This document shows, piece after piece, positions 1,639 through 20,567 of a stretch of 64,000 nt of DNA (its first letter is position 1; every line of letters starts with the position of its first letter). The notes beneath the pieces are model-generated. The model had not been told where the DNA came from. It did not search any database and saw only the letters and a program-made list of their open reading frames with translations. The stretch lies in contig PQAM01000010.1 of the NCBI GenBank assembly GCA_003104975.1, positions 186,001-250,000 of the forward strand. The letters run 5' to 3'. A program made the position numbers and the translations under genes. The stretch is from Candidatus Methylomirabilota bacterium. GTDB taxonomy: Bacteria; Methylomirabilota; Methylomirabilia; Methylomirabilales; Methylomirabilaceae.

Positions 1639-1725
1639 AAAAGTCAGATAGTGCGATGTGCAGCCCTTGGATCGTATAAGATGATGTGGTGGTCATGACC
1701 AGGGGTGCAAGGAGGTCAGACGACG

Positions 1726-3555
1726 ATGAGCGACCCGGAAAAAGGCTCGGCCCGGTTAAGTTCTTTCAGAAAGACGATGCGGAAGCTTTCCGAACAGCTT
1801 CCGGGGAACGAGACAACGTACAGCCGTAAGCTGACCCGGTACGAGGAGGAAATCGAGTCTCTTCAGGCACAGGTAAAGACACTCGAAGAGGAGATTTATC
1901 ACCTCCAGCGACGGCTGGATCAGACGCCGAAAGAGTTCGAATTCCTCCGATCCAAACTCGACCAGTCGCGTGAACAGTTGGGCCAGGCGCACAATCAGAA
2001 TCAACGGATGGTCGAGGCCTTGCAGCAGGCCAAAGAGCAGATCGAAGGCCTTCGGGAAGAGGTGGAGAAGCTTTCGGCCCCGCCGAGTCCGTACGGGATC
2101 TTCGCATCGATGAACCCCGATAAGACCGCCAATATCTTTATGGGCGGTCGAAAGATGAAGGTGAACCTCCATCCTTCGATTCGGCCGGAGTCGTTGCGCA
2201 AGGGCCAGGAGTTGATCCTGAATGAGGCGTTCAATGTGATTGAGGCGGCAGGCTTCGACGAGCAGGGCGAGGTTGTGACACTGAAAGACATGCTCGATGA
2301 GGGTCGGGCCGTGGTCACGCTGCGCGCCGATGAGGTGCGGGTCGTCGAACTGGCCGATCCGCTGCGGCAGCAACCCCTTAAGGCGGGCGATCGTCTGCTG
2401 CTCGACTCGCGGTCCGGGCACATTCTGGAAAAGCTGCCGAAGACCGATGTCCAGGAGCTGTTCCTCGAGGAGGTTCCGAGTATCGGCTATGAGGCCATCG
2501 GCGGGCTTGGTCCCCAGATCGAGATGATCAGGGACGCGATCGAGCTGCCGCATCTCTATGTCGACTACTTCCGGGAACATCAGCTTCAGCCTCCAAAGGG
2601 CGTATTGCTCTATGGGCCGCCGGGTTGCGGGAAGACGTTGATCGCGAAGGCGGTGGCGCACTCACTGGCCGAGCAACTGGCCAAGAAGACCGGGCAGGCC
2701 GTCAAGGGTTACTTCCTGAATGTGAAGGGTCCCGAGTTGCTGAACAAGTATGTCGGCGAGACGGAACGGCAGATCCGGGAGATCTTCGGCCGGGCCAGGG
2801 AGAAGGCGACCGAGGGATCGCCGGTGGTCATCTTTTTTGATGAAATGGATTCGCTCTTCCGGACGCGCGGGTCGGGCATCTCGTCGGACATGGAGTCGAC
2901 CATCGTCCCCCAGTTCCTGGCGGAACTGGACGGCGTCGAAGGGCTTAGGCATGTGATCGTAATCGGGGCCTCGAACCGTCAGGACCTCATCGATCCGGCT
3001 GTCCTGCGGCCGGGGCGGTTCGATGTCAAGATCAAGATCGACCGCCCAGACCGGAGCGCAGCCTGTGAGATCTTCGCAAAGTACTTGACGCCGGCACTGC
3101 CGTTCGCGGCGACGGAGATCAAGGCGCATGGGACGCCGGAAAAGGTAGCGGCGGCCATGACCGCGGCGGCCATCGACCTGCTGTACGCGACGGTTCCGGA
3201 GCATCGTTTCCTGGAGGTGACCTACGCCTCCGGCCAGCAGGAAACACTCTACTTCAAAGATTTTGCCTCGGGGGCCATGATTGAATCGATCTGCACAAGG
3301 GCCAAGAAGCGGGCGGTAAAACGGATGATCGCGACCGGCGTCAAGGGCCTGACGGTTGAAGACCTGCTTGATGCGGTCCGGACTGAGTTCAGAGAGAATG
3401 AGGATCTGCCGAATACGACCAATCCGGACGACTGGGCCAAGATTGCCGGCCGCCGAAGCGAGCGCATCGTCAATGTGCGGACCGTCTTCGACCGTGAAGA
3501 GAAAGAGAAGAAGTCTCGTAAGGTCGAGACTATCTCTACCGGCCACTATCTGTGA
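1726..3555 (+). CDS. mpa: proteasome-activating AAA+ ATPase (Mpa/ARC)
   Basis: A 609-residue hexameric unfoldase that captures pupylated substrates through an N-terminal coiled coil and threads them into the 20S core. The order is an N-terminal coiled coil (about residues 20-130, heptad-rich with EEEIYHLQRRLDQ), an OB-fold interdomain, then a single AAA+ module. Walker A is GPPGCGKT at residue 297 and Walker B is IFFDEMDS with Asp372-Glu373. The C-terminus GHYL has the penultimate Tyr used by actinobacterial Mpa (GQYL) to dock on the core particle. The start is the ATG at 1726, ten bases after AAGGAGG; a GTG 21 bp upstream overlaps that ribosome binding site. It is first of mpa-dop-prcB-prcA. 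Confidence 0.96.
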   Translation: MSDPEKGSARLSSFRKTMRKLSEQLPGNETTYSRKLTRYEEEIESLQAQVKTLEEEIYHLQRRLDQTPKEFEFLRSKLDQSREQLGQAHNQNQRMVEALQQAKEQIEGLREEVEKLSAPPSPYGIFASMNPDKTANIFMGGRKMKVNLHPSIRPESLRKGQELILNEAFNVIEAAGFDEQGEVVTLKDMLDEGRAVVTLRADEVRVVELADPLRQQPLKAGDRLLLDSRSGHILEKLPKTDVQELFLEEVPSIGYEAIGGLGPQIEMIRDAIELPHLYVDYFREHQLQPPKGVLLYGPPGCGKTLIAKAVAHSLAEQLAKKTGQAVKGYFLNVKGPELLNKYVGETERQIREIFGRAREKATEGSPVVIFFDEMDSLFRTRGSGISSDMESTIVPQFLAELDGVEGLRHVIVIGASNRQDLIDPAVLRPGRFDVKIKIDRPDRSAACEIFAKYLTPALPFAATEIKAHGTPEKVAAAMTAAAIDLLYATVPEHRFLEVTYASGQQETLYFKDFASGAMIESICTRAKKRAVKRMIATGVKGLTVEDLLDAVRTEFRENEDLPNTTNPDDWAKIAGRRSERIVNVRTVFDREEKEKKSRKVETISTGHYL

Positions 3556-3708
3556 TGCTCTCTTCGGCAATCAGCCGTCACCTTCAGCGAGACTGTCGAC
3601 GCGAGAAACGGCTTGCAAGCTCTTGAGATGAGGATGTGAGTGGAGCATGTTGATCGGTCTTGACCTGCTGAGTGCCGACGACTGATTGCTGCTTCACCGC
3701 AAGGATAC

Positions 3709-5193
3709 ATGGCGATCGAAAAGATCATGGGGACCGAGACCGAGTTGGGGATCAGCGCCAGGGATCCCCGCGGGTTCGATCCGGTATCCGGCTCCATCCT
3801 GTTGATCAACGCCCATCGCCCCATCGCCGAGGTCAAGTCGATCTGGGATTACGCGGGTGAGAACCCGCTCCTGGATGCCAGAGGATTCGAGATAAGCGGG
3901 GAGCGCGAGCGGCCAAGCCAGCAGGATAACCGCACGATCAACAAGCTCCTTCGAAACGGCGGCCGGCTCTATGTCGACGGCGCCCACCCCGAATACTCCA
4001 CGCCGGAATGTACCAATGCCCGGGATGTCGTCTGTTATGAGAAGGCCGGCGAGCGGATCTTCGAACTGTGTCTGGCCGCCGCCAACCTGACCCTGCCGGA
4101 GCGGCAGCGGATCTTTATCTACAAGAACAACAGCGACGGGAAAGGGAACAGCTACGGCCACCATGAAAACTACCTGATGGAACGGCGGATCCCATTCGAC
4201 CAGATTGTCCAGGGGCTTGCGCCGTTTCTGGTTACCCGCGTGATCTTTGCGGGCGCGGGCAAGGTCGGGGCGGAAAATGGCGCCGAGCGCTGCGACTTTC
4301 AGATCTCGCAGCGGGCCGACTTCTTTGAAACCTTTATCGGCCTCGACACGATGGCGAAGCGACCGATCATCAACACCCGCGACGAGCCGCACGCCGACGA
4401 GGAGAAGTACCGCCGCCTGCATGTCATTGTGGGCGACTCCAACATGTCGGAGCTCGCGACCTACCTGAAGGTCGGGACGACCGCCATCATCCTCGCCATG
4501 GTCGAGGACGGGGTGATCAAACGCGATCTCGCCATCGAGGATCCCGTCCGCGCCATCAAGGAGATCTCCCACGACATCACCTGTCGCCGCCGCATCCGCC
4601 TCAAACGCGGCAAAGAGTTCTCCGCCGTCGAGATCCAGCGCGAGTACCTCGACCTCGCCCTCGAGTACTACCAGGGCCGCGAACGCTCGCCCCAGATCGC
4701 CGATCTGCTCGAGAAGTGGCAGTACGTCCTGGACAAGCTGGCGGAGGACCCCCTGACGCTCAACCGCGAGCTGGACTGGGTCATCAAGCACGGGCTCATC
4801 ACCTCCTACATCGGGCGCAAGGGCTGCTCCTTCGACGACCAGCGCGTCTTCATGCTGGATCTGCAGTATCATGATCTTCGACGGGACAAGGGCCTGTACT
4901 TCACCCTGGAGCGCCAGGGATACGTCGAACGAATCGTCACGGACGAGGAAATTCTGCTCGCCATCACTACCCCTCCCGCGGATACCCGGGCCTATTTCCG
5001 CGGGACATGTCTACAGAAGTACCCCGATGAGGTCTATGGGGCAAGCTGGAGTTCGGTGATCTTCGATACCGGCGAGGCAACGGTGAAACGGGTTCCCATG
5101 GTCGATCCGTTGAGGGGGACGCGGAAGTTGGCGGCCGAACTGCTGGACCGATCCGACACCGCCGTGGAGCTGTTGGACAACATCGCGGTCTAG
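3709..5193 (+). CDS. dop: Dop, deamidase/depupylase of Pup (mosaic with PafA)
   Basis: A 494-residue member of the glutamine-synthetase-like Dop/PafA family. Dop deamidates Pup ending in Gln and removes Pup from substrates. The N-terminus MAIEKIMGTETELGIS carries the ATP/Mg glutamate motif. The extra ~40-residue Dop loop (about residues 35-75, SIWDYAGENPLLDARGFE) is present; it is absent from PafA and identifies this copy as Dop. YVDGAHPEYSTPEC and YKNNSDGKGNSYG are family motifs. The C-terminal third (RAYFRGTCLQKYPDEVYGASW) is Dop-like. Residues ~220-389 (4366-4875) are almost identical in DNA to pafA in this window and have PafA-type sequence, so the gene is a mosaic. Start at 3709 follows an AAGGA site. 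Whether it still acts as a full Dop cannot be told from sequence. Confidence 0.9.
   Translation: MAIEKIMGTETELGISARDPRGFDPVSGSILLINAHRPIAEVKSIWDYAGENPLLDARGFEISGERERPSQQDNRTINKLLRNGGRLYVDGAHPEYSTPECTNARDVVCYEKAGERIFELCLAAANLTLPERQRIFIYKNNSDGKGNSYGHHENYLMERRIPFDQIVQGLAPFLVTRVIFAGAGKVGAENGAERCDFQISQRADFFETFIGLDTMAKRPIINTRDEPHADEEKYRRLHVIVGDSNMSELATYLKVGTTAIILAMVEDGVIKRDLAIEDPVRAIKEISHDITCRRRIRLKRGKEFSAVEIQREYLDLALEYYQGRERSPQIADLLEKWQYVLDKLAEDPLTLNRELDWVIKHGLITSYIGRKGCSFDDQRVFMLDLQYHDLRRDKGLYFTLERQGYVERIVTDEEILLAITTPPADTRAYFRGTCLQKYPDEVYGASWSSVIFDTGEATVKRVPMVDPLRGTRKLAAELLDRSDTAVELLDNIAV
4366..4875 (+). repeat. 510-bp tract shared with pafA (copy 1)
   Basis: This tract matches 15396-15905 base for base except at 4458 (G versus A) and 4584 (T versus C), both third-position synonymous changes. 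It begins at ATCATCAACACCCG and ends at CTGCAGTATCATGAT. It uses overwhelmingly C-ending codons compared with its flanks in either gene. Sequence identity drops abruptly at both edges, as expected for recent gene conversion. Confidence 0.97.
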
Positions 5194-5225: not shown

Positions 5226-6047
5226 ATGCGCTTGTTGTTCGATTCGATGGTTCCAGGTTCGAGTTTTTTTGACCTGCTGCGGCAGGTTCGGTCTGACCTA
5301 TTGCCCCAGATGCAGATCAAGCCGGACGGGTTGTCGCCGGCTGAGATCCGGGAGTTGAAAGAGACGCCTCACGGAACTACGATTCTGGCCCTGAGATTCC
5401 GGGACGGGTCGCTGATTGCAGGGGACCGGCAGGCGACCGAGGGGTTTCAGGTCTCGTCGAGGCGGATCGAGAAGGTGTACAAGGCGGATGCCTACTCGGC
5501 CATTGCCATTGCGGGTGTTGCCGGTCCGTGCATCGAACTGGCCAAGCTGTTTGAGGTCGAGCTGACCCACTACGAAAAGCTGGAAGGGATGCCGCTTTCG
5601 CTGGAGGGAAAGGCGAATAAGTTGTCGCAGATGGTCAAGGCCAATCTACCGATGGCGATGCAGGGGTTAGTGGTGATCCCAATCTTTGTCGGCTACGATG
5701 TCAGGGGTCGGGAGGGGAAGATCTTCAAATACGACGTGACGGGCGGTCGGTATGAGGAGACCGATTACTACGCCACGGGTTCCGGCGGGAAGGATGCCCG
5801 CTCGACTATGAAAAAGTTGTATCGGGACGGTATGACCGAGGACGAGGCGATCGCGGTGGGGCTGGAGGCATTGATCGACGCGGCAGAAGAGGATGTGGGG
5901 ACCGGGGGTCCCGACTTCGTTCGCGGGCTCTTCCCGACGGTGAAGATCGCGGTCAGATCCGGCCTGCAGGATGTGCCGGAGACCCGTATCAAAGAGGTCT
6001 GCCAGGCCATTATCGATCGCCGCAAGTCGGTCGAGCGAGGAGCATAG
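5226..6047 (+). CDS. prcB: 20S proteasome beta subunit
   Basis: The catalytic subunit of the bacterial 20S core, 273 residues. A ~50-residue propeptide precedes HGTTILAL, and cleavage before Thr51 would expose the N-terminal nucleophile, as in actinobacterial PrcB (HGTTIVAL). GSLIAGDRQATEG and YATGSGG further on match the conserved active-site region of beta subunits. It starts 32 bp after dop and ends 4 bp before prcA, so the two core subunits should be co-translated. In Actinobacteria a pup gene normally sits between dop and prcB; here there is no room for one. Confidence 0.96.
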   Translation: MRLLFDSMVPGSSFFDLLRQVRSDLLPQMQIKPDGLSPAEIRELKETPHGTTILALRFRDGSLIAGDRQATEGFQVSSRRIEKVYKADAYSAIAIAGVAGPCIELAKLFEVELTHYEKLEGMPLSLEGKANKLSQMVKANLPMAMQGLVVIPIFVGYDVRGREGKIFKYDVTGGRYEETDYYATGSGGKDARSTMKKLYRDGMTEDEAIAVGLEALIDAAEEDVGTGGPDFVRGLFPTVKIAVRSGLQDVPETRIKEVCQAIIDRRKSVERGA

Positions 6048-6051
6048 GCTG

Positions 6052-6741
6052 ATGGCGCTTCCATATTATGTATCGCCGGAACAGATGATGCAGGATAAGG
6101 CGGAGTACGCCCGAAAGGGGATCGCCCGCGGAAAATCGATCATTGTTCTGGAGTACGCCGACGGGATGTTGCTGGTGGCGGAAAATCCCAGCGCCTCGCT
6201 CAACAAGATTTCGGAGATCTATGACCGGATCGCCTTTGCCGGTGCCGGGCGATACAGCGAGTTCGAGAACCTGCGTAAGGCGGGGATTCGGTATGCCGAC
6301 CTGAAGGGGTTTGCGTACGATCGGGAAGATGTGACGGCCAAGTCGCTGGCTAACGCCTACTCGCAGACCATCGGCAACATCTTCAGCGAGGCGATGAAGC
6401 CGTTGGAGGTGGAGATCCTGGTGGTTGAGGTCGCCGATGGGGAGATACCGAATGAGTTATACCGGATCGCCTTTGACGGCAGCATCGGCGACGAAAAGGG
6501 GTTTGCCGCCATCGGCGGACAGGCCGACGAGTTGAGGCAGTACTTGAAGGATAGTTATCAAACCGGGCTTGATCAAAAAGCTGCGCTGAGGCTGGCCGTC
6601 CGTGCGCTGGAGGCCGTGAGCAACGCCAAGATCGAACCGCGAAGCCTGGAGGTGGCGGTCCTGGAGCGCCATCGTACCGGCCGTAAATTCCGCCGCCTGT
6701 CCCAGGATGACCTCGCAACGATGCTCACCGAGACCGAGTAA
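6052..6741 (+). CDS. prcA: 20S proteasome alpha subunit
   Basis: A 229-residue alpha-ring subunit that gates entry to the proteasome core. The N-terminus MALPYYVSPEQMMQDKAEYARKG aligns with the H0 helix and the YV.PEQ..Q....R.GIA pattern of bacterial PrcA, followed by GKSIIVLEYADGMLLVAEN. No catalytic Thr is expected. The ATG at 6052 lies 4 bp after the prcB stop, preceded by GCGAGGAGC; a longer reading frame from 5971 runs inside prcB and is not conserved. It is last of the mpa-dop-prcB-prcA set. Confidence 0.95.
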   Translation: MALPYYVSPEQMMQDKAEYARKGIARGKSIIVLEYADGMLLVAENPSASLNKISEIYDRIAFAGAGRYSEFENLRKAGIRYADLKGFAYDREDVTAKSLANAYSQTIGNIFSEAMKPLEVEILVVEVADGEIPNELYRIAFDGSIGDEKGFAAIGGQADELRQYLKDSYQTGLDQKAALRLAVRALEAVSNAKIEPRSLEVAVLERHRTGRKFRRLSQDDLATMLTETE

Positions 6742-7055
6742 CCTATCATCGTTTTTTCTTCTCGTTCCCGTCAAAAATTATTCTTACCTGAAAAATCACG
6801 CCTTGGCCTGGACTTGCGGATCATGCCCGAAGTCCTGAAGCAGATCACGGAGCTAATCGCAATGTTCGACCAGTCATCAACGCCCTTCATTCGCCCCCCC
6901 AGTCCTCCCTCTTTTGGCCATGTCCGGGATTCGGAATCCCTCTGTGACCCCAGATAGACAATCGCTGAAGCTCCCGCCTTTGCCGTAACGCTGCCCAAAG
7001 TTGGTAACCTCCGGTCAGCCTGCGGTATCTTATAAATAAAGGGGAGGCGTGGCCG
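6742..7055. other. intergenic region with a relic of a methylase gene start
   Basis: This 314-bp gap after prcA contains no intact gene. At 6823 an ATG opens MPEVLKQITELIAMFDQ, which matches the first 17 residues of the type IIG enzyme at 9045 (MAEVPKQIAELIAKFDQ) at both protein and DNA level. The match stops after the FDQ codons and the frame ends 29 codons later. The preceding bases (CCTGAAAAATCACG) also resemble bases before the 9045 gene (CCTGAAAAGTCACA at 8834). The distal part holds the leader of the sigma-factor gene. Confidence 0.6.
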
Positions 7056-7703
7056 GTGGTTATCGAATCGATTCCGTCCCCATCACAATGTGAATCTGAA
7101 CTGCTAAGACGGGTCCTGGCTGGAGAGCGCCGCCTCTTCCACGAGCTGGTCCGTCCGTATGAGCGCGCTGTCTTCACTACGGCTTATGGAATCCTGCGCG
7201 ACTATGCCGATGCTGAAGAGGTGGCACAGGACACCATACTGAAGGCGCTCATGCGCCTGGATCAGCTTACGGCGCCGGAGAAATTTAAGGCGTGGTTGTT
7301 GCGGATCGCTGTCAACGAAGCTCGGCTCAAGTGGCGCAACAAACATGCACATCTCTTCGAGCCGCTCGATAAGGCCCAATCGAGTTCGAGAGAACCCTTT
7401 ACGCCGCGCGACTTCGCCGACTGGCGCGAACTCCCTTCCGACATCGCTGAACGGAAGGAGCTCAGGGATCAGATTGCCAGGGCTTTAGATGCATTGCCCG
7501 ATATTTATCGAGAGACCTTCATTCTGCGCGATGTGGAACAACTGAGCGCGGCCGATACAGCGGCAGCGTTAGAGATTACCGTGGCGGCCGTAAAGGTGCG
7601 CCTTCACCGGGCGCGGCTGATGATGCGTGAACAGCTTGCATCGGTGCTGCGCCGCGGGTGGCTCGACCGTGTGCTTTCATTCAAGGGCAAAAGACCATGG
7701 TGA
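7056..7703 (+). CDS. ECF-family RNA polymerase sigma factor
   Basis: A 215-residue sigma-70 family protein with only regions 2 and 4. Region 2 is near residues 25-95 (YGILRDYADAEEVAQDTILKA). Region 4 is near residues 140-195 (ALDALPDIYRETFILRDVEQLS, then a helix-turn-helix AAALEITVAAVKVRLHRAR). The GTG at 7056 is preceded by GGGGAGG with 8-nt spacing. The following zinc-finger gene overlaps by 7 nt, which is typical of an ECF sigma/anti-sigma pair. The two downstream genes resemble mercury or metal transport proteins, so metal stress is a reasonable but unproven trigger. Confidence 0.92.
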   Translation: MVIESIPSPSQCESELLRRVLAGERRLFHELVRPYERAVFTTAYGILRDYADAEEVAQDTILKALMRLDQLTAPEKFKAWLLRIAVNEARLKWRNKHAHLFEPLDKAQSSSREPFTPRDFADWRELPSDIAERKELRDQIARALDALPDIYRETFILRDVEQLSAADTAAALEITVAAVKVRLHRARLMMREQLASVLRRGWLDRVLSFKGKRPW

Positions 7704-7924
7704 CCTGCGAACAGGTACTGCAAGAGCTGTCGAATTTCATCGACCGGGATGTCGATCCTGCCCTGCGCGCCGAGATCGAGGCGCATCTGGTAAGGTGCCG
7801 TCGCTGTTCGGTGCTGTATGACAGCCTGCGCAAGATGCTGGTGATTGTGGCCGACGAGCGGACGTTTGAGATCCCAGCCGGATACAGCGAACGGCTGCAT
7901 GCCTTCATCGATCGGCACCTCTGA
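7697..7924 (+). CDS. zinc-finger anti-sigma factor, short form
   Basis: A 75-residue protein with the anti-sigma zinc-binding pattern: Cys at position 3 (MVTCEQVLQELSNFID) and HLVRCRRC, giving the H-x3-C-x2-C core. No membrane helix follows, so it would be a soluble cytoplasmic anti-sigma factor, unlike the common membrane-anchored form. The start at 7697 is inside the end of the sigma gene, indicating coupled translation. It most likely binds the sigma factor encoded at 7056-7703. Confidence 0.82.
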   Translation: MVTCEQVLQELSNFIDRDVDPALRAEIEAHLVRCRRCSVLYDSLRKMLVIVADERTFEIPAGYSERLHAFIDRHL

Positions 7925-7977
7925 CGGCTACGGTAACCCTTGCCGCCGTCGCGCATCGTGTAGATAGGAGTCGGAGT

Positions 7978-8379
7978 ATGAGCGCCACATGGAAAACCCG
8001 ATCATTGGGTTATATTTCATTGTTCACATCACTGGGCACACTGCTGTGCTGTGCATTGCCATCGTTGATGGTACTGGTTGGGATGGGCGCGACAGTCGCA
8101 TCGCTCGTCTCAACGTTACCCTGGCTTATTGCCCTGTCACGGTACAAGAACTTGACGTTTGCGCTTGCGGGCCTGCTGATCGCCGTTAATTCCGTCTATA
8201 TCTATCGCATCGCGCCCGGACTTCAGCAGACCGGACGAAGCTGCCCTGTCGATCAGCCGAGCGCCTGCACTACGGCAAGCCGCGTCAGTCGGACGATTTT
8301 ATGGACCTCGACAGGGATCTATTTCATCGGTCTGTTTTCGGCGTATCTGCTTGGACCGGTTCTAGAGGCTATTGGATAG
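7978..8379 (+). CDS. MerT-like small membrane transport protein
   Basis: A 133-residue inner-membrane protein with about three or four hydrophobic segments. The first contains a vicinal Cys pair (TLLCCALPS), as in the mercury importer MerT. A second pair of cysteines occurs in a loop (SCPVDQPSAC), again reminiscent of MerT's cytoplasmic Cys pair. A MerP-like domain protein follows 25 bp downstream. It is preceded by a GGAGT ribosome binding site. Metal specificity cannot be read from the sequence, and no merA or merR is visible nearby, so Hg(II) transport is only a candidate role. Confidence 0.6.
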   Translation: MSATWKTRSLGYISLFTSLGTLLCCALPSLMVLVGMGATVASLVSTLPWLIALSRYKNLTFALAGLLIAVNSVYIYRIAPGLQQTGRSCPVDQPSACTTASRVSRTILWTSTGIYFIGLFSAYLLGPVLEAIG

Positions 8380-8404
8380 TCTGGTATTTCCAAGGAGGAA
8401 AAGA

Positions 8405-8710
8405 ATGACAAGATCACGCACTACGAAAGTCACGATAGCGGCAGTCATGATGCTGTTGCTGGCCAGCGTTGCGTTGGCGGCCGACATGACAACAACCTTT
8501 AAGGTGACAGGAATGTACTGCAATGCCTGTGAAACCAAGATCAGACAGGCACTGAAAAAGACGGACGGGGTCAGAAGCGCAACGGTCAGTCTCAGTAACG
8601 GCTCGGCTACTGTGATCTACGACGATGCCAAGGTCACACCCGATCGGATCGTCAAGGTCATCGAGACGCAAGGCTACAAGGCAGAGCCGCAACTCGAGGG
8701 CAAGTCTTAA
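8405..8710 (+). CDS. periplasmic heavy-metal-associated (MerP-like) protein
   Basis: A 101-residue protein with a cleavable signal peptide (ending ASVALA) and one HMA ferredoxin-like domain. The metal-binding motif is GMYCNACETKI (GMxCxxC). Helix and strand order follow MerP/CopZ: VTGMYC, then IRQALKKTDGV, SATVSLSNGSATVIYDD, and VIETQGYKAE. The ATG at 8405 follows AAGGAGGAAAAG; an in-frame ATG at 8372 overlaps the previous gene and spoils the signal peptide. It probably delivers metal to the MerT-like membrane protein encoded just upstream. Confidence 0.85.
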   Translation: MTRSRTTKVTIAAVMMLLLASVALAADMTTTFKVTGMYCNACETKIRQALKKTDGVRSATVSLSNGSATVIYDDAKVTPDRIVKVIETQGYKAEPQLEGKS

Positions 8711-9044
8711 CTCGCTCGAGAGTACAATGGCCGGGATGAGGCGCTCGATGATCGGGCGCCTCTCGCTAATGAATTGCAACTGCGACGATTTGCTCCGACA
8801 ATCTGGTAAAATCCTCGCCGAAGATTCTCCTTGCCTGAAAAGTCACATCTCGGCTAGAGTCCCGAAGAGAAGTTCGACGAAGGGATCGGCGCCCCCCCGC
8901 GAATCGTCATTCCTGCGAAAGCAGGAATCCAGAACCCCCCGCCATTTCCTGGATTCCGGCTCGCGCCCGCTGCGCGGGCTTGGCCGGAATGACGTCCGTG
9001 GATAGGCTGCCAATTTCAAACGCACGACTCTGGACAGGCGTACC
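8711..9044. other. intergenic region with palindromic repeat before the RM gene
   Basis: This 334-bp gap holds no supported gene. It contains bases related to the segment before the relic at 6823, a C-run, and the 89-bp inverted-repeat element at 8905-8993. The final ~50 bp is the leader of the restriction-modification gene. Confidence 0.7.
8905..8993. repeat. 89-bp palindromic repeat, family A, copy 1
   Basis: The element starts CGTCATTCCTGCG and ends GGCCGGAATGACG, so its termini are inverted repeats, and internal stems (GCGAAAGC and CCCGCTGCGCGGG) fold further. It is the reverse-complement orientation of the copy at 13695-13783; a third copy lies at 38609-38695. Such CGTCATTCC elements are common dispersed palindromes in many bacterial genomes. 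Confidence 0.85.
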
Positions 9045-12000
9045 ATGGCCGAGGTTCCGAAACAGATAGCGGAGCTGATCGCGAAGTTCGACCAGCACCT
9101 CGATGCGTATCACGCCGCCACCTACGGTGAGACCGAGGTACGGGTGGAATTTATCAACCCGTTCTTTGAGGCGCTCGGCTGGGATGTTGCCAATCGGACC
9201 GGCTACGCCGAAGCCTACAAGGACGTCATCCACGAGGACGCCATCAAGATCGGCGGCGCCACCAAGGCCCCCGATTACTGTTTTCGTATCGGCGGTACGC
9301 GCAAGTTCTTCCTGGAAGCCAAGAAACCCGCGACTAACATCAAGGGCGACACCAACCCCGCCTTTCAGTTGCGCCGCTATGCCTGGTCGGCCAAACTCCC
9401 GCTCAGTATCCTGACGGACTTTGAGGAGTTCGCCGTCTATGACTGCCGGATCAAACCGGACCAGGCCGATCGCGCCTCCACCGCCCGCGTCCTGTACCTG
9501 ACCTACTCCGAGTATGTCCGGCGGTGGGACGAGATTGCCGCTATCTTCTCCCGCGATGCCGTTCTGAAAGGCTCGTTCGACCGATATGCCGAGTCGAGCA
9601 GGGGGAAGAAAGGGACCGCCGCCGTTGACGCGGCCTTCCTGAAGGAGATTGAAGCCTGGCGGGAATCGCTCGCCCGCAATCTGGCCCTTCGCAATCCCGA
9701 CCTCACCCAACAGGAACTCAACTTCGCCGTCCAGCGGACCATCGACCGGATCATCTTCCTCCGGATGTGCGAAGATCGGGGCATCGAGCCCTACGGCCAG
9801 CTCCAGACGTTGCTGAACGGCGAGCATACCTATGAGCGGCTGCGCTACCTGTATGGGATCGCGGATGATCGGTACAACTCTGGCCTCTTTCATTTCAAGC
9901 CGGAGAAGGGACGGGCTGAAGCGCCGGATGCCTTGGCCTACACGTTGACCATCGACGACAAGGTCCTGAAAGAGATCATTCGCCGCCTCTACTATCCTGA
10001 GAGTCCCTACGAGTTCTCTGTCCTTGGGGCCGACATCCTCGGCAACGTCTATGAGCAGTTCCTCGGCAAGGTGATCCGTCTGACCCCCGGCCACCGCGCC
10101 GTCGTAGAGGACAAGCCCGAGGTCAAGAAGGCCGGGGGCGTCTATTACACCCCTGCCTACATCGTGGACTACATCGTCACCCACACCGTCGGCAAGCTCT
10201 GCGAGGGGAAAACGCCCAAGCAGGTCGCCAAGCTCAGAATCCTCGATCCGGCCTGCGGCTCCGGCTCGTTCCTGATCAGCGCGTATTCCTCCCTTCTGAA
10301 CTATCACCGCGATTGGTATGTGAAGGATGACCCCAAACGGCACACCAAGGAGATCTATCAAGGGATCGGCGGACAGTGGTTCTTAACCACCCAGGAGAAA
10401 AAGCGGATCCTGCTGAATAATATCTACGGCGTGGATATCGACAGCCAGGCGGTCGAGGTGACCAAGCTGAGCCTCTTGCTCAAGGTACTGGAAGGGGAAA
10501 ACCAGGATTCGCTGACCCGCCAGTTGCAGATGTGGCGCGAGCGCGCCCTGCCTGACCTCGGCAACAACATCAAGTGCGGCAACAGCCTCATCGGTCCGGA
10601 CTTTTACGAGCACCAGCAGATGAGCCTGCTCGATGAAGACGAGCGCTATCACATCAACGTCTTCGACTGGCAGGCGGAGTTTCCATCAATCATGCAAGCA
10701 GGCGGCTTCGACGCCGTCATCGGCAACCCGCCGTATGTGCGGCAAGAGGGAGTTTCAGACTATAAGCACTATTTTTCAGTTTCTTATAATGCTTATCACG
10801 GACTGGCCGATCTTTACGTGTATTTTTACGAACGCGGTCTGCAGCTTGCGAGAGACGGTGGATTGCTTGGTTACATCAGCTCAAGTAAGTTTTTGCATAC
10901 GGGTTACGGTACCGGGTTGCGGGATCTGCTTTCCCAACACCTACGCCCGTTGAGCGTGGTGGACTATGGGGACGTACAAATTTTTAAGGGGGCTACCACC
11001 TACCCTATTGTTGTGATTGGCGAGAAAACTCATGGAAGTGTTGCGAGGGACTTTCGGTATGGTCGTGCTGCCAGTGAAACTGGTGTACTGCCGGAGACGA
11101 TCCTCGATTACGGAAAATCCGTATCGTGCAAGTCCCTCACTTCAGGTCCATGGATTTTTACGACCAAGCGAGGACAACGAATCGTCACAAAGATGACAGA
11201 CCAGTCGTCACCGTTGTCTCAAGTAGGCGGACCTGCACAGATTGGGATCAAGACAAGTCTTAATGAAGCGTTTGTTGTTAAACCCGACGTTGCTCATGCC
11301 CTGGTTCGATCTCACAGTGGGGCGCGTGAAGTATTGAAGCCTTATGGCCGGGGCAGGGATATTCGGAATTGGTTTTCAACTACTAATGGAGATTTTCTAA
11401 TCTGTGCACGGGAATCTTTGAACATCGAAAATTATCCGTCAGTCAAGGAGTATTTGAAACAGTTCGAAGCCCGCCTTCGTGCAAGATATGAGGTCCAACG
11501 TGGAGACTACGATTGGTGGGTTATTCGTCAGGTGGCCAACACCGAGGTTTATGATAATCCAAAGCTGGTTTACCCTGACCTCTGTTCCAAGTCACGGTTC
11601 GCTCTTAATGTCGACGGCATGTATCCAAATAACACGGTGTTTTGTATCCCAAGTGACAGTCTTGCTCTTCTGGGCTATCTGAACTCACAACTGGCGTGGT
11701 ACTGGATCACTCAGCACTGCCCGGCCAATCGAGGTGATGCTTATCGGCTTTCCAATCAGCATATGAACAAGCTGCCGGTGAACCCAAGCCTTTTAAGACA
11801 TACCCGATTATCCGGCTTGGTCGAGCAGATGCTGGGCCTGCACAAGCAATTGGCGGCAGCGAAGACGCCGGATGAGAAGACGCGACTGCATCGTCAGATT
11901 GGTGCGACCGACCGGCTGATTGATCAGCTCGTCTACGACCTCTACGGCCTGACAGAAGAAGAGGTTCGGCTGGTCGAGGAGGCAACTACGGGACAGCGAG

Positions 12001-12053
12001 TGGCGTCCATTAACAGAAAGGTCCACAAGCAGGCCATCCAAACTGATCAATAA
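9045..12053 (+). CDS. type IIG restriction-modification enzyme (N6-adenine methylase with fused nuclease)
   Basis: A 1002-residue single-chain restriction-methylation protein of the Eco57I-like group. The N-terminal nuclease has a PD-(D/E)xK pattern: Asp77 (APDYCF), Glu91 and Lys93 (FLEAKKP). A helical connector precedes the SAM-binding motif I LDPACGSGSFL (about residue 400) and the adenine-MTase motif IV NPPYVRQ (about residue 560). The C-terminal half resembles TaqI-like target-recognition domains, with a final helical segment. From about 10740 to 11800 the DNA is clearly more AT-rich than the first part, suggesting that the recognition portion was swapped. A HEPN protein follows 18 bp downstream. 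The start gives MAEVPKQIAELI; no separate methylase or specificity gene is present. Confidence 0.88.
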   Translation: MAEVPKQIAELIAKFDQHLDAYHAATYGETEVRVEFINPFFEALGWDVANRTGYAEAYKDVIHEDAIKIGGATKAPDYCFRIGGTRKFFLEAKKPATNIKGDTNPAFQLRRYAWSAKLPLSILTDFEEFAVYDCRIKPDQADRASTARVLYLTYSEYVRRWDEIAAIFSRDAVLKGSFDRYAESSRGKKGTAAVDAAFLKEIEAWRESLARNLALRNPDLTQQELNFAVQRTIDRIIFLRMCEDRGIEPYGQLQTLLNGEHTYERLRYLYGIADDRYNSGLFHFKPEKGRAEAPDALAYTLTIDDKVLKEIIRRLYYPESPYEFSVLGADILGNVYEQFLGKVIRLTPGHRAVVEDKPEVKKAGGVYYTPAYIVDYIVTHTVGKLCEGKTPKQVAKLRILDPACGSGSFLISAYSSLLNYHRDWYVKDDPKRHTKEIYQGIGGQWFLTTQEKKRILLNNIYGVDIDSQAVEVTKLSLLLKVLEGENQDSLTRQLQMWRERALPDLGNNIKCGNSLIGPDFYEHQQMSLLDEDERYHINVFDWQAEFPSIMQAGGFDAVIGNPPYVRQEGVSDYKHYFSVSYNAYHGLADLYVYFYERGLQLARDGGLLGYISSSKFLHTGYGTGLRDLLSQHLRPLSVVDYGDVQIFKGATTYPIVVIGEKTHGSVARDFRYGRAASETGVLPETILDYGKSVSCKSLTSGPWIFTTKRGQRIVTKMTDQSSPLSQVGGPAQIGIKTSLNEAFVVKPDVAHALVRSHSGAREVLKPYGRGRDIRNWFSTTNGDFLICARESLNIENYPSVKEYLKQFEARLRARYEVQRGDYDWWVIRQVANTEVYDNPKLVYPDLCSKSRFALNVDGMYPNNTVFCIPSDSLALLGYLNSQLAWYWITQHCPANRGDAYRLSNQHMNKLPVNPSLLRHTRLSGLVEQMLGLHKQLAAAKTPDEKTRLHRQIGATDRLIDQLVYDLYGLTEEEVRLVEEATTGQRVASINRKVHKQAIQTDQ

Positions 12054-12071
12054 TGTGACCAGAGGACTCTG

Positions 12072-13640
12072 ATGCATGAGAAGACCTACAATGAACTTCT
12101 AGCGGCGAGCGATATTTTGCAACTTGAGCCGGATGACGCCATAAGTCGTATCGGGGATTTGGTCGATCTTTCTACCGACCTAGGACGAGAAGATGGCCTG
12201 CATAGGGCGATAGACTGGTGTGAGCAGTTGAAGACAAGTGCCCTGTCCCCCGGCCAACAAGCCACGCTTTGCTATTTTGAAGGCAATGCATGGTCAGCTA
12301 TTCGCCAATTGCGCCACAAGGATGGGGGCGATGTCTGGGAATGGGAGCAAATAGAGTTCGAGAAAGAAATCATTTGTCTGCGTCTTGCAGCGAAGGCCGT
12401 GGGAGTCGTCGACTTCCCTCCAGAGCGCCTTTGCCAAATATACACGAATCTCGGCAACTGTTTCTCTCACATTGGGCGTTTCGTAGAGGCGCTATGGTAT
12501 TACGATAAGGCGCTGGGTATCGTTCCAGATTTTGGAATGGCCCAGGGCAATAAGGCCATCACGTTATCGGATTATGCGCGGACACTCTACGATAATGGAC
12601 ATACGAGCATATTTCTAAGAGAAGCGCACAGTCTGCTGAAATCTGCGGTGGAGCACCCGCTGGAACCGGACGCCAGGGAGGCGTTCACCCGAGGAAAAAA
12701 TCGGATCGAGTCTTTTCTCCGACCAGATTTTCTATCGACACCAACGGACCTGGACAATTTCCCCATGGGAAAGAACGAGGAGGAAAAGGCTTATCGGGCC
12801 TGGTGTCTGCGAGAACGGCTATTCCTGAATCCCCTCAATGACCTGGGGAATTACCCAATTGCGAATCGAGATATCCTCACAGCACCATCCATTGTAGTCG
12901 GGCTTAACGAAGGGCCCTACTATCCCGCACTATTCAATGCTCTCAAACAGGAGTACGTGTCGGCTCGGTTTTTACTCTATGCCGGTATAGAAGCGGCTGG
13001 CCCTCATTTTTCTGATCGTGACGTGCTTCTGTACAATACGCTTGATTACCCTGCTTATGGACTGGCCACAGAGCAGGTGAAGATTGCATTTCGTATGGCG
13101 TATTCGATCTTTGATAAGGTTGCTTTTTTCCTGAACCATTATTTGGGGCTTCAAATTCCGGAGCGCCAGATTTATCTAAAGACTATTTGGTTCAACAATG
13201 GGAAGAAAAACGGAGACCTGCTTTCACGGTTCAAATCGAAAGAAAATTGGCCCATGAGAGGACTGTATTGGCTCAGTAAAGATTTGTTCTGCGACGACGA
13301 AGGGTTTCGAGAGGCAATAGAGCCGGATGCACGCGCCCTGAACGAGTATCGTAACCATTTGGAGCATAAGTACCTCAAGCTTCACATGGATGAGTGGGCG
13401 GGACCCCTCGCCTTCCAAGACACCGTTGGCAAAGCGATGACGGATTCACTGGCTTTTTCGGTTTACAGACGTGACTTTGAAATGAGCGCCATCTCTATCA
13501 TGAGATTGGCGCGGGCAGCATTGATCTATTTATCTCTTGGGGTTCATACTGAGGAACATCACAGAGCAAAGGGTCGTGATTTTAACAACATGGTTATGCC
13601 CATGCGGCTGGATACATGGGACGATGACTGGAAGCGGTGA
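12072..13640 (+). CDS. LA2681-like HEPN domain protein with TPR-like N-terminus
   Basis: A 522-residue protein that resembles the LA2681 HEPN family. Residues ~20-210 are helical repeats of TPR type (YTNLGNCFSHIGRFVEALWYYDKAL). The C-terminal region (about 330-510) contains FNPL-like helices and EYRNHLEH, where Arg427 and His432 make the Rx4H motif of HEPN ribonucleases. It starts 18 bp after the type IIG gene and has the same lower GC content as that gene's 3' half, so both were probably acquired together. A role as an RNA-cleaving back-up to restriction is inferred from the motif and context and has not been shown. Confidence 0.7.
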   Translation: MHEKTYNELLAASDILQLEPDDAISRIGDLVDLSTDLGREDGLHRAIDWCEQLKTSALSPGQQATLCYFEGNAWSAIRQLRHKDGGDVWEWEQIEFEKEIICLRLAAKAVGVVDFPPERLCQIYTNLGNCFSHIGRFVEALWYYDKALGIVPDFGMAQGNKAITLSDYARTLYDNGHTSIFLREAHSLLKSAVEHPLEPDAREAFTRGKNRIESFLRPDFLSTPTDLDNFPMGKNEEEKAYRAWCLRERLFLNPLNDLGNYPIANRDILTAPSIVVGLNEGPYYPALFNALKQEYVSARFLLYAGIEAAGPHFSDRDVLLYNTLDYPAYGLATEQVKIAFRMAYSIFDKVAFFLNHYLGLQIPERQIYLKTIWFNNGKKNGDLLSRFKSKENWPMRGLYWLSKDLFCDDEGFREAIEPDARALNEYRNHLEHKYLKLHMDEWAGPLAFQDTVGKAMTDSLAFSVYRRDFEMSAISIMRLARAALIYLSLGVHTEEHHRAKGRDFNNMVMPMRLDTWDDDWKR

Positions 13641-13694
13641 AATCCTCGAAGCGTTCGGTCTGGCTTCATTATTGTGCTTTTCCAGATTTGTAGC

Positions 13695-13783
13695 CGTCAT
13701 TCCGGCCAAGCCCGCATCGCGGGCGCGAGCCGGAATCCAGGAAATAACGGGGGTTCTGGATTCCCGCTTGCGCGGGAATGACG
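13695..13783. repeat. 89-bp palindromic repeat, family A, copy 2
   Basis: CGTCATTCCGGCC to GCGGGAATGACG, 89 bp, nearly the reverse complement of 8905-8993. It lies 54 bp after the HEPN gene stop. The surrounding gap (13641-13934, 294 bp) has no other recognised feature apart from an AAGGAGG-like site at 13896. Confidence 0.85.
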
Positions 13784-13934
13784 ACACATGGAGTATCGAC
13801 TTCTTCATAGGATTTCTGATTCAGGACACTAGAGCACGTTGCACACGATGGCAGGCTTGGTCTAAGCTGGTTGCGGTCAAAGTGAGTAACCTCTTCAAGG
13901 AGGACGCGCTACAGACGTGCGCGGTGGACGAGAT

Positions 13935-14273
13935 ATGATGATGAAGCTAAGCCCTGCAGAGCAGGCCTGGCTAGATGCCTATCGCCGGACGTTGGCGGAG
14001 CGGTTTCCAGCCCTCGTCGAAGAGATCATTGTCTTTGGGTCAAAGGCGAGAGGAACGGCGACAGCCGATTCAGACCTTGATCTCTTGGTGGTGATTCGAG
14101 AGGGGGACTGGCGGCTGAAGGACGCCGTTGCACAATCCGGTGACCATCTAGCTATAGGGACAGACGTGGTGCCGTCGATCATCGTCCTTACGAGGGAGGA
14201 ATGGGAAACACACCGAAAGCGACAGGCTCCGTTTTGGCTGACGGTCACTCGTGATGGGGTAGCCGTGCCGTGA
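13935..14273 (+). CDS. MNT-type nucleotidyltransferase (antitoxin-like)
   Basis: A 112-residue minimal nucleotidyltransferase. The signature is IVFGSKARGTATADSDLDLLVV: the G-S motif followed by D-x-D, the metal-binding acidic pair of the Pol-beta superfamily. Length and fold match MNT partners of HEPN proteins, which can inactivate their HEPN toxin by adenylylation. Its stop overlaps the GTG of the next gene (GTGA). The ATG at 13935 is one of three consecutive ATGs; a start at 13917 is also in frame. Confidence 0.82.
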   Translation: MMMKLSPAEQAWLDAYRRTLAERFPALVEEIIVFGSKARGTATADSDLDLLVVIREGDWRLKDAVAQSGDHLAIGTDVVPSIIVLTREEWETHRKRQAPFWLTVTRDGVAVP

Positions 14274-14671
14274 ATCCCGACAATATATTGGCGGAGTTCG
14301 AGCGTGCGAAACGGGCATTGCAGGCGGCAAGAAACCTGTACGAGGATGGATTGTATGAGGATGCGGTCTCGCGCAGCTACTACGCCGTCATGCACGCCGC
14401 CAAGGCGGCCCTGCTATTCCATGATGCCGTCGCTGAATCGCACGCCGCCGTCGGACGCCTCTTTGGTTCGGTCCTGGTTCGCCCTGGAATCATCGAAGCG
14501 GAATGGGCAGATGTGCTTGCCAGAGAACACCGACGCCGGATCGCGGCCGATTACGGAATAACCGCTTCGTGGGAATCGGCAGAGTCGTTGCGTCTTGTGG
14601 AAGAGGCCGGTGCGTTTGTTCAACGCATTCGGGTGTACCTGAAGAGTATTGGGATTAACTTGGACGGATAG
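14270..14671 (+). CDS. HEPN-domain protein (toxin-like partner of MNT)
   Basis: A 133-residue all-helical HEPN protein. The core SRSYYAVMHAAKAALL carries Arg and His in an Rx6H arrangement, and a second conserved helix has EHRRRIAADYGI. It starts with GTG overlapping the stop of the nucleotidyltransferase gene. The order MNT then HEPN, the overlap and the sizes match two-gene MNT-HEPN toxin-antitoxin modules. The target RNA is unknown. Confidence 0.8.
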   Translation: MNPDNILAEFERAKRALQAARNLYEDGLYEDAVSRSYYAVMHAAKAALLFHDAVAESHAAVGRLFGSVLVRPGIIEAEWADVLAREHRRRIAADYGITASWESAESLRLVEEAGAFVQRIRVYLKSIGINLDG

Positions 14672-14828
14672 ACACGCAATGCCTTAGGTGCTCATTTCCG
14701 CAATAGGGACTCTTAACATCCCTTAGCACCCCTTCTATAACTCTCTCTTCAAATTCCCCCGTACTCTCCCGATGAATTCCATTGACCCCCATATGGCCTT
14801 CCGGTACGATAATTATGGAGTTGCTGTC

Positions 14829-16187
14829 ATGCAGGAGCGCATCCTTGGGCTGGAAAGCGAATACGGTCTGATCTCGTCCTCGGTCGGCGGGCGGGTGAAC
14901 CTGTCGGTTGAGAGTGCGTTGGGCTATCTCTTTGAAAAGGTGGTCTCGCGCCAGCGCGGGACCAACGATTTCCTGCGCAACGGTGCGCGGCTCTATCAGG
15001 ACACCGGCTGTCATCCCGAGTATGCCACCCCTGAGTGCGACAACCCGCGGGACCTGGTGATCCACGACAAGGCGGGCGAGCGGATCGTGGAGGAGCTGTT
15101 ACTGAGCGCCGAGCAAAAGTTGCAAGAGAACGGCATCTGCTGCGAAATCTACATCTTCAAGAACAACACCGATTCTGTGGGAAACACATACGGCTGTCAT
15201 GAGAACTACCTGGTGCAGCGCGGTGTGAACTTCCACAAGCTGGCCGAGCAGTTGATCCCCTTCTTCGTGACGCGACAAGTGTTTGCGGGCGCCGGCAAGG
15301 TCCTTCGGACGCGGATGGGGAACCATTACTATATCTCGCAGCGGGCGCAGCACATCTACCAGGAGATCTCGGGTGCGACGACCAGCTCGCGCGGAATCAT
15401 CAACACCCGCGACGAGCCGCACGCCGACGAGGAGAAGTACCGCCGCCTGCATGTCATTGTGGGCGACTCCAACATGTCGGAGCTCGCAACCTACCTGAAG
15501 GTCGGGACGACCGCCATCATCCTCGCCATGGTCGAGGACGGGGTGATCAAACGCGATCTCGCCATCGAGGATCCCGTCCGCGCCATCAAGGAGATCTCCC
15601 ACGACATCACCTGCCGCCGCCGCATCCGCCTCAAACGCGGCAAAGAGTTCTCCGCCGTCGAGATCCAGCGCGAGTACCTCGACCTCGCCCTCGAGTACTA
15701 CCAGGGCCGCGAACGCTCGCCCCAGATCGCCGATCTGCTCGAGAAGTGGCAGTACGTCCTGGACAAGCTGGCGGAGGACCCCCTGACGCTCAACCGCGAG
15801 CTGGACTGGGTCATCAAGCACGGGCTCATCACCTCCTACATCGGGCGCAAGGGCTGCTCCTTCGACGACCAGCGCGTCTTCATGCTGGATCTGCAGTATC
15901 ATGATATCAAGCGGACTCGCGGGCTGTACTACCTGATGTTGCAGGACGACCTGATCGATCGGGTGATCACGGAGGATGAGATTGAGACGGCCATGACCAC
16001 GCCGCCGCAGACGACGCGGGCCAAGGTGCGAAGCGACTTCATCAAATACGCGAATGAGCGGAACAAGTCGTACGATGTGGGCTGGAGCTATCTTAAGCTG
16101 AACGACCGGTATCAGCGTACCATCCTCTGTAAGGATCCGTTCAAGCCCTGGGATCCGCGTGTCGATGAACTGATCGGTTTGTCGTAA
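14829..16187 (+). CDS. pafA: PafA, Pup-protein ligase
   Basis: A 452-residue ligase that phosphorylates the C-terminal Glu of Pup and joins it to substrate lysines. MQERILGLESEYGL contains the catalytic glutamate motif, and YQDTGCHPEYATPEC and YIFKNNTDSVGNTYGCHENYL are PafA signatures. The Dop loop is absent, and the C-terminus KLNDRYQRTILCKDPF is diagnostic of PafA. The chosen ATG at 14829 follows GGAG and gives exactly the length of mycobacterial PafA; an upstream ATG at 14772 would add 19 unconserved residues. Residues ~190-359 are encoded by the tract shared with dop. It sits 8 kb from mpa-dop-prcBA, with restriction and toxin genes in between. Confidence 0.95.
   Translation: MQERILGLESEYGLISSSVGGRVNLSVESALGYLFEKVVSRQRGTNDFLRNGARLYQDTGCHPEYATPECDNPRDLVIHDKAGERIVEELLLSAEQKLQENGICCEIYIFKNNTDSVGNTYGCHENYLVQRGVNFHKLAEQLIPFFVTRQVFAGAGKVLRTRMGNHYYISQRAQHIYQEISGATTSSRGIINTRDEPHADEEKYRRLHVIVGDSNMSELATYLKVGTTAIILAMVEDGVIKRDLAIEDPVRAIKEISHDITCRRRIRLKRGKEFSAVEIQREYLDLALEYYQGRERSPQIADLLEKWQYVLDKLAEDPLTLNRELDWVIKHGLITSYIGRKGCSFDDQRVFMLDLQYHDIKRTRGLYYLMLQDDLIDRVITEDEIETAMTTPPQTTRAKVRSDFIKYANERNKSYDVGWSYLKLNDRYQRTILCKDPFKPWDPRVDELIGLS
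15396..15905 (+). repeat. 510-bp tract shared with dop (copy 2)
   Basis: 508 of 510 positions are identical to 4366-4875. Its protein sequence has PafA characteristics, for example VIVGDSNMSE, AIKEISHDIT and DWVIK, so pafA is the more likely donor. Confidence 0.97.
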
Positions 16188-16308
16188 TGTGGTCGAGGTC
16201 CCAACACACTCCAAGACACAATCGTGAGATGCCGGCGTAAGGATAAGGATGGAGTCATGCGGAATCGCTGACGAGATCGCCATACAGACGGTGATGCGAA
16301 TGGACAGA

Positions 16309-19652: not shown

Positions 19653-20567
19653 ATGGGGCTTTTTGGTACATTATTTGAGGGTGGCGGGGGGAAATCGGGC
19701 AAGAGGCTTATTGAGGTATCCAAAACCGGCACCATCGAGCAGGTGAAGCGGCAGTTGGCCGACAGCGCTGACACGAACGCGAGCGACAGGCATGGCTGGA
19801 CGGCTCTGATGCATGCCTGTTGGCATGGACGTTTCAAGGTGGTAGAACTGCTGCTTAAGCACGGCGCCGACGTCAACGCGAAGGATCACAACGACTGGAC
19901 GGCCCTCATGCGCGCGTCCGCGAAGGGATATCCGAAGATTGTGGAGCTGCTGCTCACGCACGGCGCCGACGTCAACGCGAAGGATCACAACGACTGGACG
20001 GCCCTCATGCGCGCGTCATGGAACGGCCATTCCGGCGCGGTCGAGCTCTTGCTCAAGCAGGGCGCCAAGGTCAATGTGAAAGACAAGGATGGCTGGACCA
20101 TCCTGATGCACGCGTCCGGGCACGGGCGGACCGCAGTGGTCGAACAATTACTCGATCACGGCGCCGAGATCGATGTGCGAGACAAGGACGGCTGGACGGC
20201 CCTGATGCGCGCGGCGTGGAACGGACATGGGAGTATCGTAGATCTCTTGCTCAAGCAGGGCGCCGATGTGAATGCACAGGACCACAGTGGAACGACCGCC
20301 CTGATGCGCGCGTCCTGGAGAGGGCATTTCGGAGTGGTCGAGCAAGTAGTCAAGCGGGGCGCGGATGTGAACGCGAAGGATAATCGAGGGAGGACCGCCC
20401 TGATGCGCGCAGCCGAGCGGGGGCGTTCCCGGATTGTCGGACTGCTGCTGAATCAAGGCGCTGATCCGAACGCCAGAGATCATGACCGCCAGACGGCGAG
20501 ATTGTATGTGTCTGCGCTGGAACATCCCAAGGTGGCTGAACTGCTGGATCGGCACAGCGCACACTGA
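19653..20567 (+). CDS. ankyrin-repeat protein 1
   Basis: A 304-residue protein of about eight 33-residue ankyrin repeats with consensus GADVNAKDHNDWTALMRASWNGH.xxVELLLK, after a short hydrophobic Gly-rich N-terminus (MGLFGTLFEGGGGK). No secretion signal or catalytic domain is seen. Two neighbouring repeats share a 59-bp exact match (19860 and 19959, 99 bp apart), evidence of recent repeat duplication. GGGGGAGG precedes the ATG. It is the first of five consecutive paralogues; a protein-binding scaffold role is the only safe inference. Confidence 0.92.
   Translation: MGLFGTLFEGGGGKSGKRLIEVSKTGTIEQVKRQLADSADTNASDRHGWTALMHACWHGRFKVVELLLKHGADVNAKDHNDWTALMRASAKGYPKIVELLLTHGADVNAKDHNDWTALMRASWNGHSGAVELLLKQGAKVNVKDKDGWTILMHASGHGRTAVVEQLLDHGAEIDVRDKDGWTALMRAAWNGHGSIVDLLLKQGADVNAQDHSGTTALMRASWRGHFGVVEQVVKRGADVNAKDNRGRTALMRAAERGRSRIVGLLLNQGADPNARDHDRQTARLYVSALEHPKVAELLDRHSAH

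Follow-up and report, generated by a model that had tools for sequence, protein, structure and literature searches.

The genes dop and pafA share a 510-bp tract that is homogenised genome by genome in the order Methylomirabilales, between the same in-frame borders wherever both can be read. Each lineage renews the homogenisation on its own; the sister group and one relative lack it. Very probably, the tract has long been evolving in concert through interlocus gene conversion between the two genes. For a broader claim—that two opposed enzymes share a physically exchanged core throughout the order, with borders placed by whatever determines the direction of the reaction and with a GC-biased exchange—we see about an even chance. 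No report of dop–pafA gene conversion was found in the open-access papers searched.

The shared tract and its host genes

The window, i.e. the whole 64-kb stretch of DNA that was analysed, comprises positions 186001–250000 of contig 10 (675 kb) of a 3.0-Mb genome in 19 contigs. It carries a Pup-proteasome system in the order mpa, dop, prcB, prcA, an insertion of ~8 kb and pafA:

1705–3555, + strand: mpa/ARC proteasome ATPase, as context (TIGR03689, 728 bits)
3709–4365, + strand: Dop-specific 5′ part of dop, residues 1–219 (NCBIfam TIGR03688), with a history separate from that of pafA (Dop/PafA split 100/100 in the flank tree)
4321–4359, + strand: Dop alpha-loop, residues 205–217, corresponding to F208–K220 of AcelDop by alignment to 4B0R/5LRT (role from PMC7947786 and PMC8599861); it ends two codons 5′ of the tract
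4366–4875, + strand: homogenised tract in dop, residues 220–389 (508/510 identical to 15396–15905; third-position G+C, GC3, 0.918)
4876–5193, + strand: Dop-specific 3′ part of dop, residues 390–494 (edge comparison and flank tree)
5226–6047, + strand: prcB, proteasome beta subunit, as context (TIGR03690)
6046–6741, + strand: prcA, proteasome alpha subunit, as context (TIGR03691)
14772–15395, + strand: PafA-specific 5′ part of pafA, residues 1–208 (flank tree and family profile)
15351–15389, + strand: PafA alpha-loop region, residues 194–206, corresponding to H188–S200 of CgluPafA by alignment to 4B0T; it ends two codons 5′ of the tract
15396–15905, + strand: homogenised tract in pafA, residues 209–378 (identity to the dop copy, within-genome comparison and GC3)
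15906–16187, + strand: PafA-specific 3′ part of pafA, residues 379–471 (edge comparison and flank tree)

Both frames are intact (dop 494 aa, pafA 471 aa), and the names that an earlier sequence-only reading of this DNA had given them are right, each product passing the NCBIfam cut-off of its own family and failing that of the other: Dop scores 573.1 bits with TIGR03688 (cut-off 492.3) and stays below the cut-off of TIGR03686, and PafA scores 572.5 bits with TIGR03686 (cut-off 551.3) and stays below that of TIGR03688. Dop has a Dop-type alpha-loop (FETFIGLDTMAK) outside the tract and PafA a PafA-type one (EISGATTSS). From family cut-off and alpha-loop type, the two are predicted to be members of the depupylase/deamidase family and of the Pup ligase family, respectively. 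Structure models of Dop and PafA, built on shallow alignments, reached a mean pLDDT of 41 and 52 and were left aside.

The same reading had described 4366–4875 and 15396–15905 as identical at 508 of 510 positions, with both differences synonymous and with clearly different flanks, which proved exact. In an ungapped comparison, the differences lie at offsets 92 (G in dop, A in pafA) and 218 (T in dop, C in pafA), both third codon positions, and identity falls from 30/30 at the tract edges to 11/30 upstream and 14/30 downstream in the 30-bp blocks just outside. While 63–68% of the synonymous and 42% of the nonsynonymous sites differ between the flanks of the two genes, only 1.7% and 0% do so in the tract. 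Neither chance nor protein-level selection can produce a tract that is almost identical at silent sites between flanks that are so strongly diverged.

A repeat search and self-BLAST found this to be the sole long direct repeat in the first 20 kb, aside from the gene of an ankyrin-repeat protein (19653–20567) whose DNA-level repeats are ~91% identical. Long open frames run antisense to dop (3694–4872, minus strand, 392 aa) and pafA (15099–16283, minus strand, 394 aa), probably as a by-product of the very GC-rich third positions. Compared with relatives, the window has ~8 kb more between prcA and pafA (6742–14771), including a BREX PglX-like methyltransferase (9045–12053) and a 522-aa protein of unknown kind (12072–13640). 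Also in this DNA, an MntA-like nucleotidyltransferase and the 133-aa gene after it (13917–14671) probably form a toxin–antitoxin pair. Much of this extra DNA is bracketed by a 59-nt inverted repeat (8936–8994 and 13695–13753, 92% complementary) that looks like a dispersed palindromic element.

Homogenisation across relatives

Within the genus Methylomirabilis, the 510-bp query was matched in 14 of 15 genomes. Each genome with complete genes gave two matches that were equally close to the query (92/92, 91/91, 90/90 and 86/86%) and spanned its positions 1–509 or 1–510, and the dop and pafA tracts of one genome are identical or nearly so (508 of 510 positions in the window genome G000, 509 in G006 and G008, 510 in G003 and 500 in G009). 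Between genomes of the genus, 437–488 of the 510 positions agree (86–96%, or 4–14% differing). From G000 to G016, which belongs to another family of the order and whose own two copies agree at 509/510, the figure is ~357/510, and tracts of different families differ by ~30%. Paralogues within a genome are thus closer to each other (98–100%) than orthologues within the genus, as expected of concerted evolution.

Contigs of draft genomes end inside the tract, and the partial copies of dop and pafA agree at 249/252 positions in G020, 123/123 in G029, 208/210 in G028, 209/210 in G034, 140/141 in G015, 136/138 in G011 and 143/144 in G014. In G005, the counts are 138/138 and 174/177, yet 281/294 towards the 5′ end; with 13 of 294 sites differing between the genes there and a nearly identical 3′ part, this tract is partly escaping homogenisation. 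Of the six families in the order, four, including that of the genus itself, are homogenised and a fifth, represented by a single genome (G019), is not, the sixth having contributed no data to this count. The two tracts of G019 agree at 376/510 positions, with 55 residue differences, and those of 11 genomes from the other family of the class (large, GC-rich and, by our reading, Rokubacteria-like) at 277–359/510, with differences at 62–107 of 170 residues. Most genomes have 3.1 kb between the two copies and the window has 11.0 kb, with no visible effect on homogenisation.

Protein trees of 71 proteins from several phyla, in which the flanks were represented by the last 150 residues before the tract and the part after it, separate these two histories. 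In the flank tree, Dop and PafA split across phyla (100/100), i.e. outside the converted zone they are old, separate genes with no recent duplication. In the tract tree, the label Dop or PafA needs 14 changes and the tracts of the order cluster by genome; all Methylomirabilales tracts, from both genes and including G019, form one clade (100/98), and forcing the Dop tracts of the order into a clade of their own is rejected (AU p=4e-10). A DNA tree of the tract makes the two copies sisters in each of six genomes, with 97–100% support or as identical sequences. Ancient dop–pafA conversions in other phyla were also considered: Dop and PafA tracts from these phyla are intermingled in the tree, but a monophyletic Dop outside the order is not rejected (AU p=0.15), and no such conversions are claimed.

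Silent sites give the same picture. Between the two copies of the tract, dS is 0–0.05 within converting genomes, as against 0.19–0.54 between species of the genus, and reaches 0.78 in G019 and 0.54–0.72 in three relatives from the class; between the flanks of dop and pafA it ranges from 1.2 to saturation. Flanks that split by gene around a tract that groups by genome imply concerted evolution that is long-lasting, still active and confined by fixed borders. On the simplest reading, the homogenised core arose before the split of G019 and was maintained by conversion again and again, except in G019, where it lapsed.

The sequence-only reading was therefore right to invoke gene conversion, given silent sites homogenised within genomes and tract copies that are sisters by genome. 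It had also held that a long-standing presence of the segment in both genes of relatives, by descent, would speak against its case. The long-standing presence is real; mere descent is not, because the copies group by genome and the shared segment must reflect repeated conversion.

Silent-site G+C, donor and borders

In the window, GC3 is 0.92 in the tract as against 0.73–0.82 in the flanks, with a step at the borders. Across five genomes of the genus, the values are 0.90–0.93 and 0.67–0.82 (flanks of both genes), with profiles that step at the tract ends, and in G016 they are 0.85 and 0.68–0.78. All 12 of the most GC3-rich among the 1023 170-codon windows of the 64-kb window overlap the two tracts, and 81/81 and 80/81 of the fourfold sites in these tracts are G or C. 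A two-state non-stationary model of 13 genomes, fitted with the upstream flank of one gene on a flank-derived tree and ignoring rate variation, puts the equilibrium GC at 0.90 for the tract and at 0.69 for the upstream flank (LRT 15.1, p=1e-4).

GC-biased gene conversion, which has been argued for in bacteria (Lassalle 2015, PMC4450053) and denied (Ely 2021, PMC8153448), is the explanation of the raised silent-site G+C that we moderately favour. The competing account, which accepts concerted evolution and attributes the G+C of the tract to codon selection or an old high-GC ancestor instead of biased conversion, is a serious contender, though we lean against it. It would fit the lower silent divergence between species in the tract (0.28) than in the flanks (0.42–0.46), and it gains from a parsimony count of third-position changes fixed in the dop tract, in which GC to AT prevails (17, and 2 AT to GC), with no clear surplus of AT to GC. 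Moreover, the step is not found in every converting lineage: G015 (family 2) lacks it (0.78–0.81 versus 0.74–0.78), and family 5 is so close to GC saturation that a step is hard to see there. What argues for biased conversion, besides the fitted equilibria, is that in six genomes the step lies exactly at the borders of either copy, whereas G019, which is not homogenised, has none (p=0.37 and 0.90), and that it is near zero in the Rokubacteria-like genomes and in other phyla; GC3 is also flat in GC-saturated relatives. Among differences between copies that are not yet homogenised, 17 of 18 polarised cases are new GC-to-AT changes and one is AT to GC, an excess that shows mutation input only.

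With regard to the donor, the sequence-only reading had named pafA, which the data do not support. The few diagnostic residues in the tract are Dop-like in four cases and PafA-like in two, trees that constrain the tract to the Dops fare about as well as those that constrain it to the PafAs, neither being rejected (dlnL 14.1 and 15.6; AU p 0.195 and 0.167), and of 40 outside genomes, 28 give alignment scores that lean towards Dop (11 of 12 in the nearest outgroup). Neither gene is thus favoured as the founding donor by residues, distances or constrained trees, and exchange after the founding event is treated as two-way. The label of a Dop–PafA–Dop chimera accordingly says too much: the core is specific to the order, is common to both genes and groups with neither family. 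As for the two differences that now exist in the window, each gene has one new mutation, G to A in pafA and C to T in dop.

These results also bear on the idea of one recent event, in which pafA converted dop in this strain alone. Such an event would leave just what the window genome has, two silent differences, and is nevertheless very unlikely: the zone is homogenised in all informative relatives within the genus and in three further families, each time with a genome-specific sequence, and the donor tests do not point to pafA. G006, G003, G008, G009 and G016 refute it, unless all five assemblies are wrong.

Just as improbable is an assembly artefact, whereby a collapsed or cross-joined repeat—a metagenome assembly chimera, in the terms of the sequence-only reading—mimics identity. 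Most relatives are indeed known from metagenome assemblies, the tract is where many contigs end, and consensus errors at single sites could occur in some draft genomes. Yet the contig of the window is 675 kb long, G006 is a single contig of 2,752,854 bp, and independent assemblies share the borders, differ in sequence and retain a few real differences between the copies; contigs break in the tract because the reads do contain an identical repeat. In G018, a contig joins the 5′ part of dop via the tract to the 3′ part of pafA, with a frameshift, in a genome that shows no proteasome alpha/beta pair; this is either an assembly collapse or a deletion in which the DNA between the direct repeats looped out, and such a join is what an artefact would also give.

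The borders are identical and in frame across the order wherever both edges can be read. In each of the six converting genomes in which both genes are complete, the 5′ edge follows ...GLDTMAKRP in Dop and ...SGATTSSRG in PafA and precedes IINTRDEPHADEEKYRRLH, and the 3′ edge comes directly after DLQYHD or DLQFHD. Aligned to Dop of A. cellulolyticus, the tract covers residues 223–395. The alpha-loop of that enzyme (F208–K220) is a loop holding the C-terminus of Pup in Dop and a helix in PafA (PMC8599861), and its replacement, together with a few other changes, makes a ligase of Dop (PMC7947786). Two residues separate this element, which decides between depupylase and ligase, from the 5′ border, and all 20 switch positions of that study (Table 1; 27–103, 208–220 and 452) fall outside the tract. 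R227 and H241, which hold the phosphate in both enzymes, correspond to R224 and H238 of the window Dop and lie inside. Because the 5′ edge adjoins the alpha-loop and every switch substitution lies outside, it is probably selection against wider tracts that sets the borders, as argued here from the published actinobacterial mutants.

A dedicated site-specific system (an invertase, retroelement or similar) that swaps the segment would likewise give the same borders in different families. We regard it as extremely unlikely, as no common recombination-site-like sequence lies outside the borders, these match the edge of conserved protein motifs, and copies 3.1 kb apart and copies 11 kb apart show no visible difference in effect. 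Finally, strong purifying selection on the same core in both enzymes without any exchange of DNA, akin to the shared Pup-groove that the sequence-only reading had also offered, would suit a core that holds common catalytic residues and is refuted by silent sites that are identical within genomes and diverged between species, as well as by Rokubacteria-like cores that differ so widely between Dop and PafA, leaving it practically no probability.

Proposed mechanism and known systems

In the mechanism that we propose for concerted evolution of the tract, RecA-dependent recombination would copy the core between the genes in either direction, such that a new mutation in one copy is erased or spread to both. 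The borders would be stable because the DNA beyond the tract is too diverged to pair and because any conversion extending into the alpha-loop or into the C-terminal part, which is class-specific, would make one enzyme more like the other and be purged. Exchange of the core would be tolerated because both enzymes use the same chemistry inside the tract, with its phosphate-binding Arg and His; Dop and PafA would each retain their own activity, set by the parts outside. Conversion may, with moderate confidence, be GC-biased and raise silent-site G+C inside the tract.

RecA is present in Methylomirabilis, and mismatch repair is apparently lost in the genus: MutS1 was found in 0 of 15 genomes and MutL in 0 of the 4 examined, while G016, G019 and G051 carry both. 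This loss might, more tentatively, make conversion more frequent in Methylomirabilis, as loss of mutS in Salmonella raises tuf conversion 200–1000-fold (PMC5485169). It was rejected as the cause, since G016 is homogenised with both MutS and MutL present; it would be an aid, not a requirement.

The pup gene of Methylomirabilis has moved out of the proteasome operon (G000:C2:26195–26383, outside the window), whereas it adjoins dop in G016, G019, G020 and G029. Its product in the genus already ends in GGE, so that deamidation would not be needed. Pup ends in GGE in every homogenised genome examined and in GGQ in the non-homogenised G019. As a cause of homogenisation, Pup-GGE was rejected, most Rokubacteria-like genomes having GGE without being homogenised; at most, it is permissive.

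There are practical consequences as well. Because the repeat breaks contigs, dop and pafA are often truncated in draft genomes of the phylum, and whole-protein trees of Dop and PafA mix two histories.

The nearest published case of domain-limited conversion between bacterial paralogues is that of the release factors RF1 and RF2, with two ancient single conversions in two lineages and in opposite directions (Ishikawa 2015, PMC4530459). There, too, the paralogues differ in specificity, conversion is confined to the domain of the common task (nearly all of domain 3), the specificity-determining domains are spared and phylogenies are split. Unlike in RF1/RF2, conversion between dop and pafA recurs in every converting lineage, is still active, leaves 98–100% identity and links enzymes of opposing reactions. 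Long-lasting concerted evolution in prokaryotes, e.g. of tuf, similarly keeps paralogues closer than orthologues over long times, homogenises silent sites and affects members of one pathway (Wang and Chen 2018, PMC6053082). That study used whole-gene trees and a gene-balance argument, with the proteasome unmentioned; in contrast to its families, about one-third of each gene is homogenised in dop and pafA, and the products are functionally opposed. In Salmonella tufA/tufB, the mean conversion walk of ~500 nt fits the 510-bp zone, and the lack of detectable MutS1 and MutL in Methylomirabilis adds to the likeness, but these are nearly identical genes of the same function (PMC5485169).

As for base composition, higher G+C where recombination is frequent agrees with Lassalle 2015 (PMC4450053). 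However, the earlier bacterial evidence is a correlation across genes, whereas the contrast in dop and pafA lies within single genes and at sharp, known borders. Having the same gene, genome and expression on both sides of a border, in converting and non-converting relatives, makes for a clean test of the disputed GC-biased conversion in bacteria and, if the bias is true, for its demonstration within a gene.

In the engineered switch from Dop to PafA, the alpha-loop and a few residues turn a depupylase into a ligase, at positions outside the natural tract (Hecht 2020, PMC7947786). Those were laboratory substitutions in actinobacterial enzymes, and a natural exchange of the core is not reported there. 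The NC10 bacteria (Methylomirabilis and relatives) thus offer a rare natural experiment on the interchangeability of Pup-attaching and Pup-removing enzymes: a record, written in many lineages, of which third of two opposed enzymes can be exchanged, with its border where the laboratory mutants put the switch.
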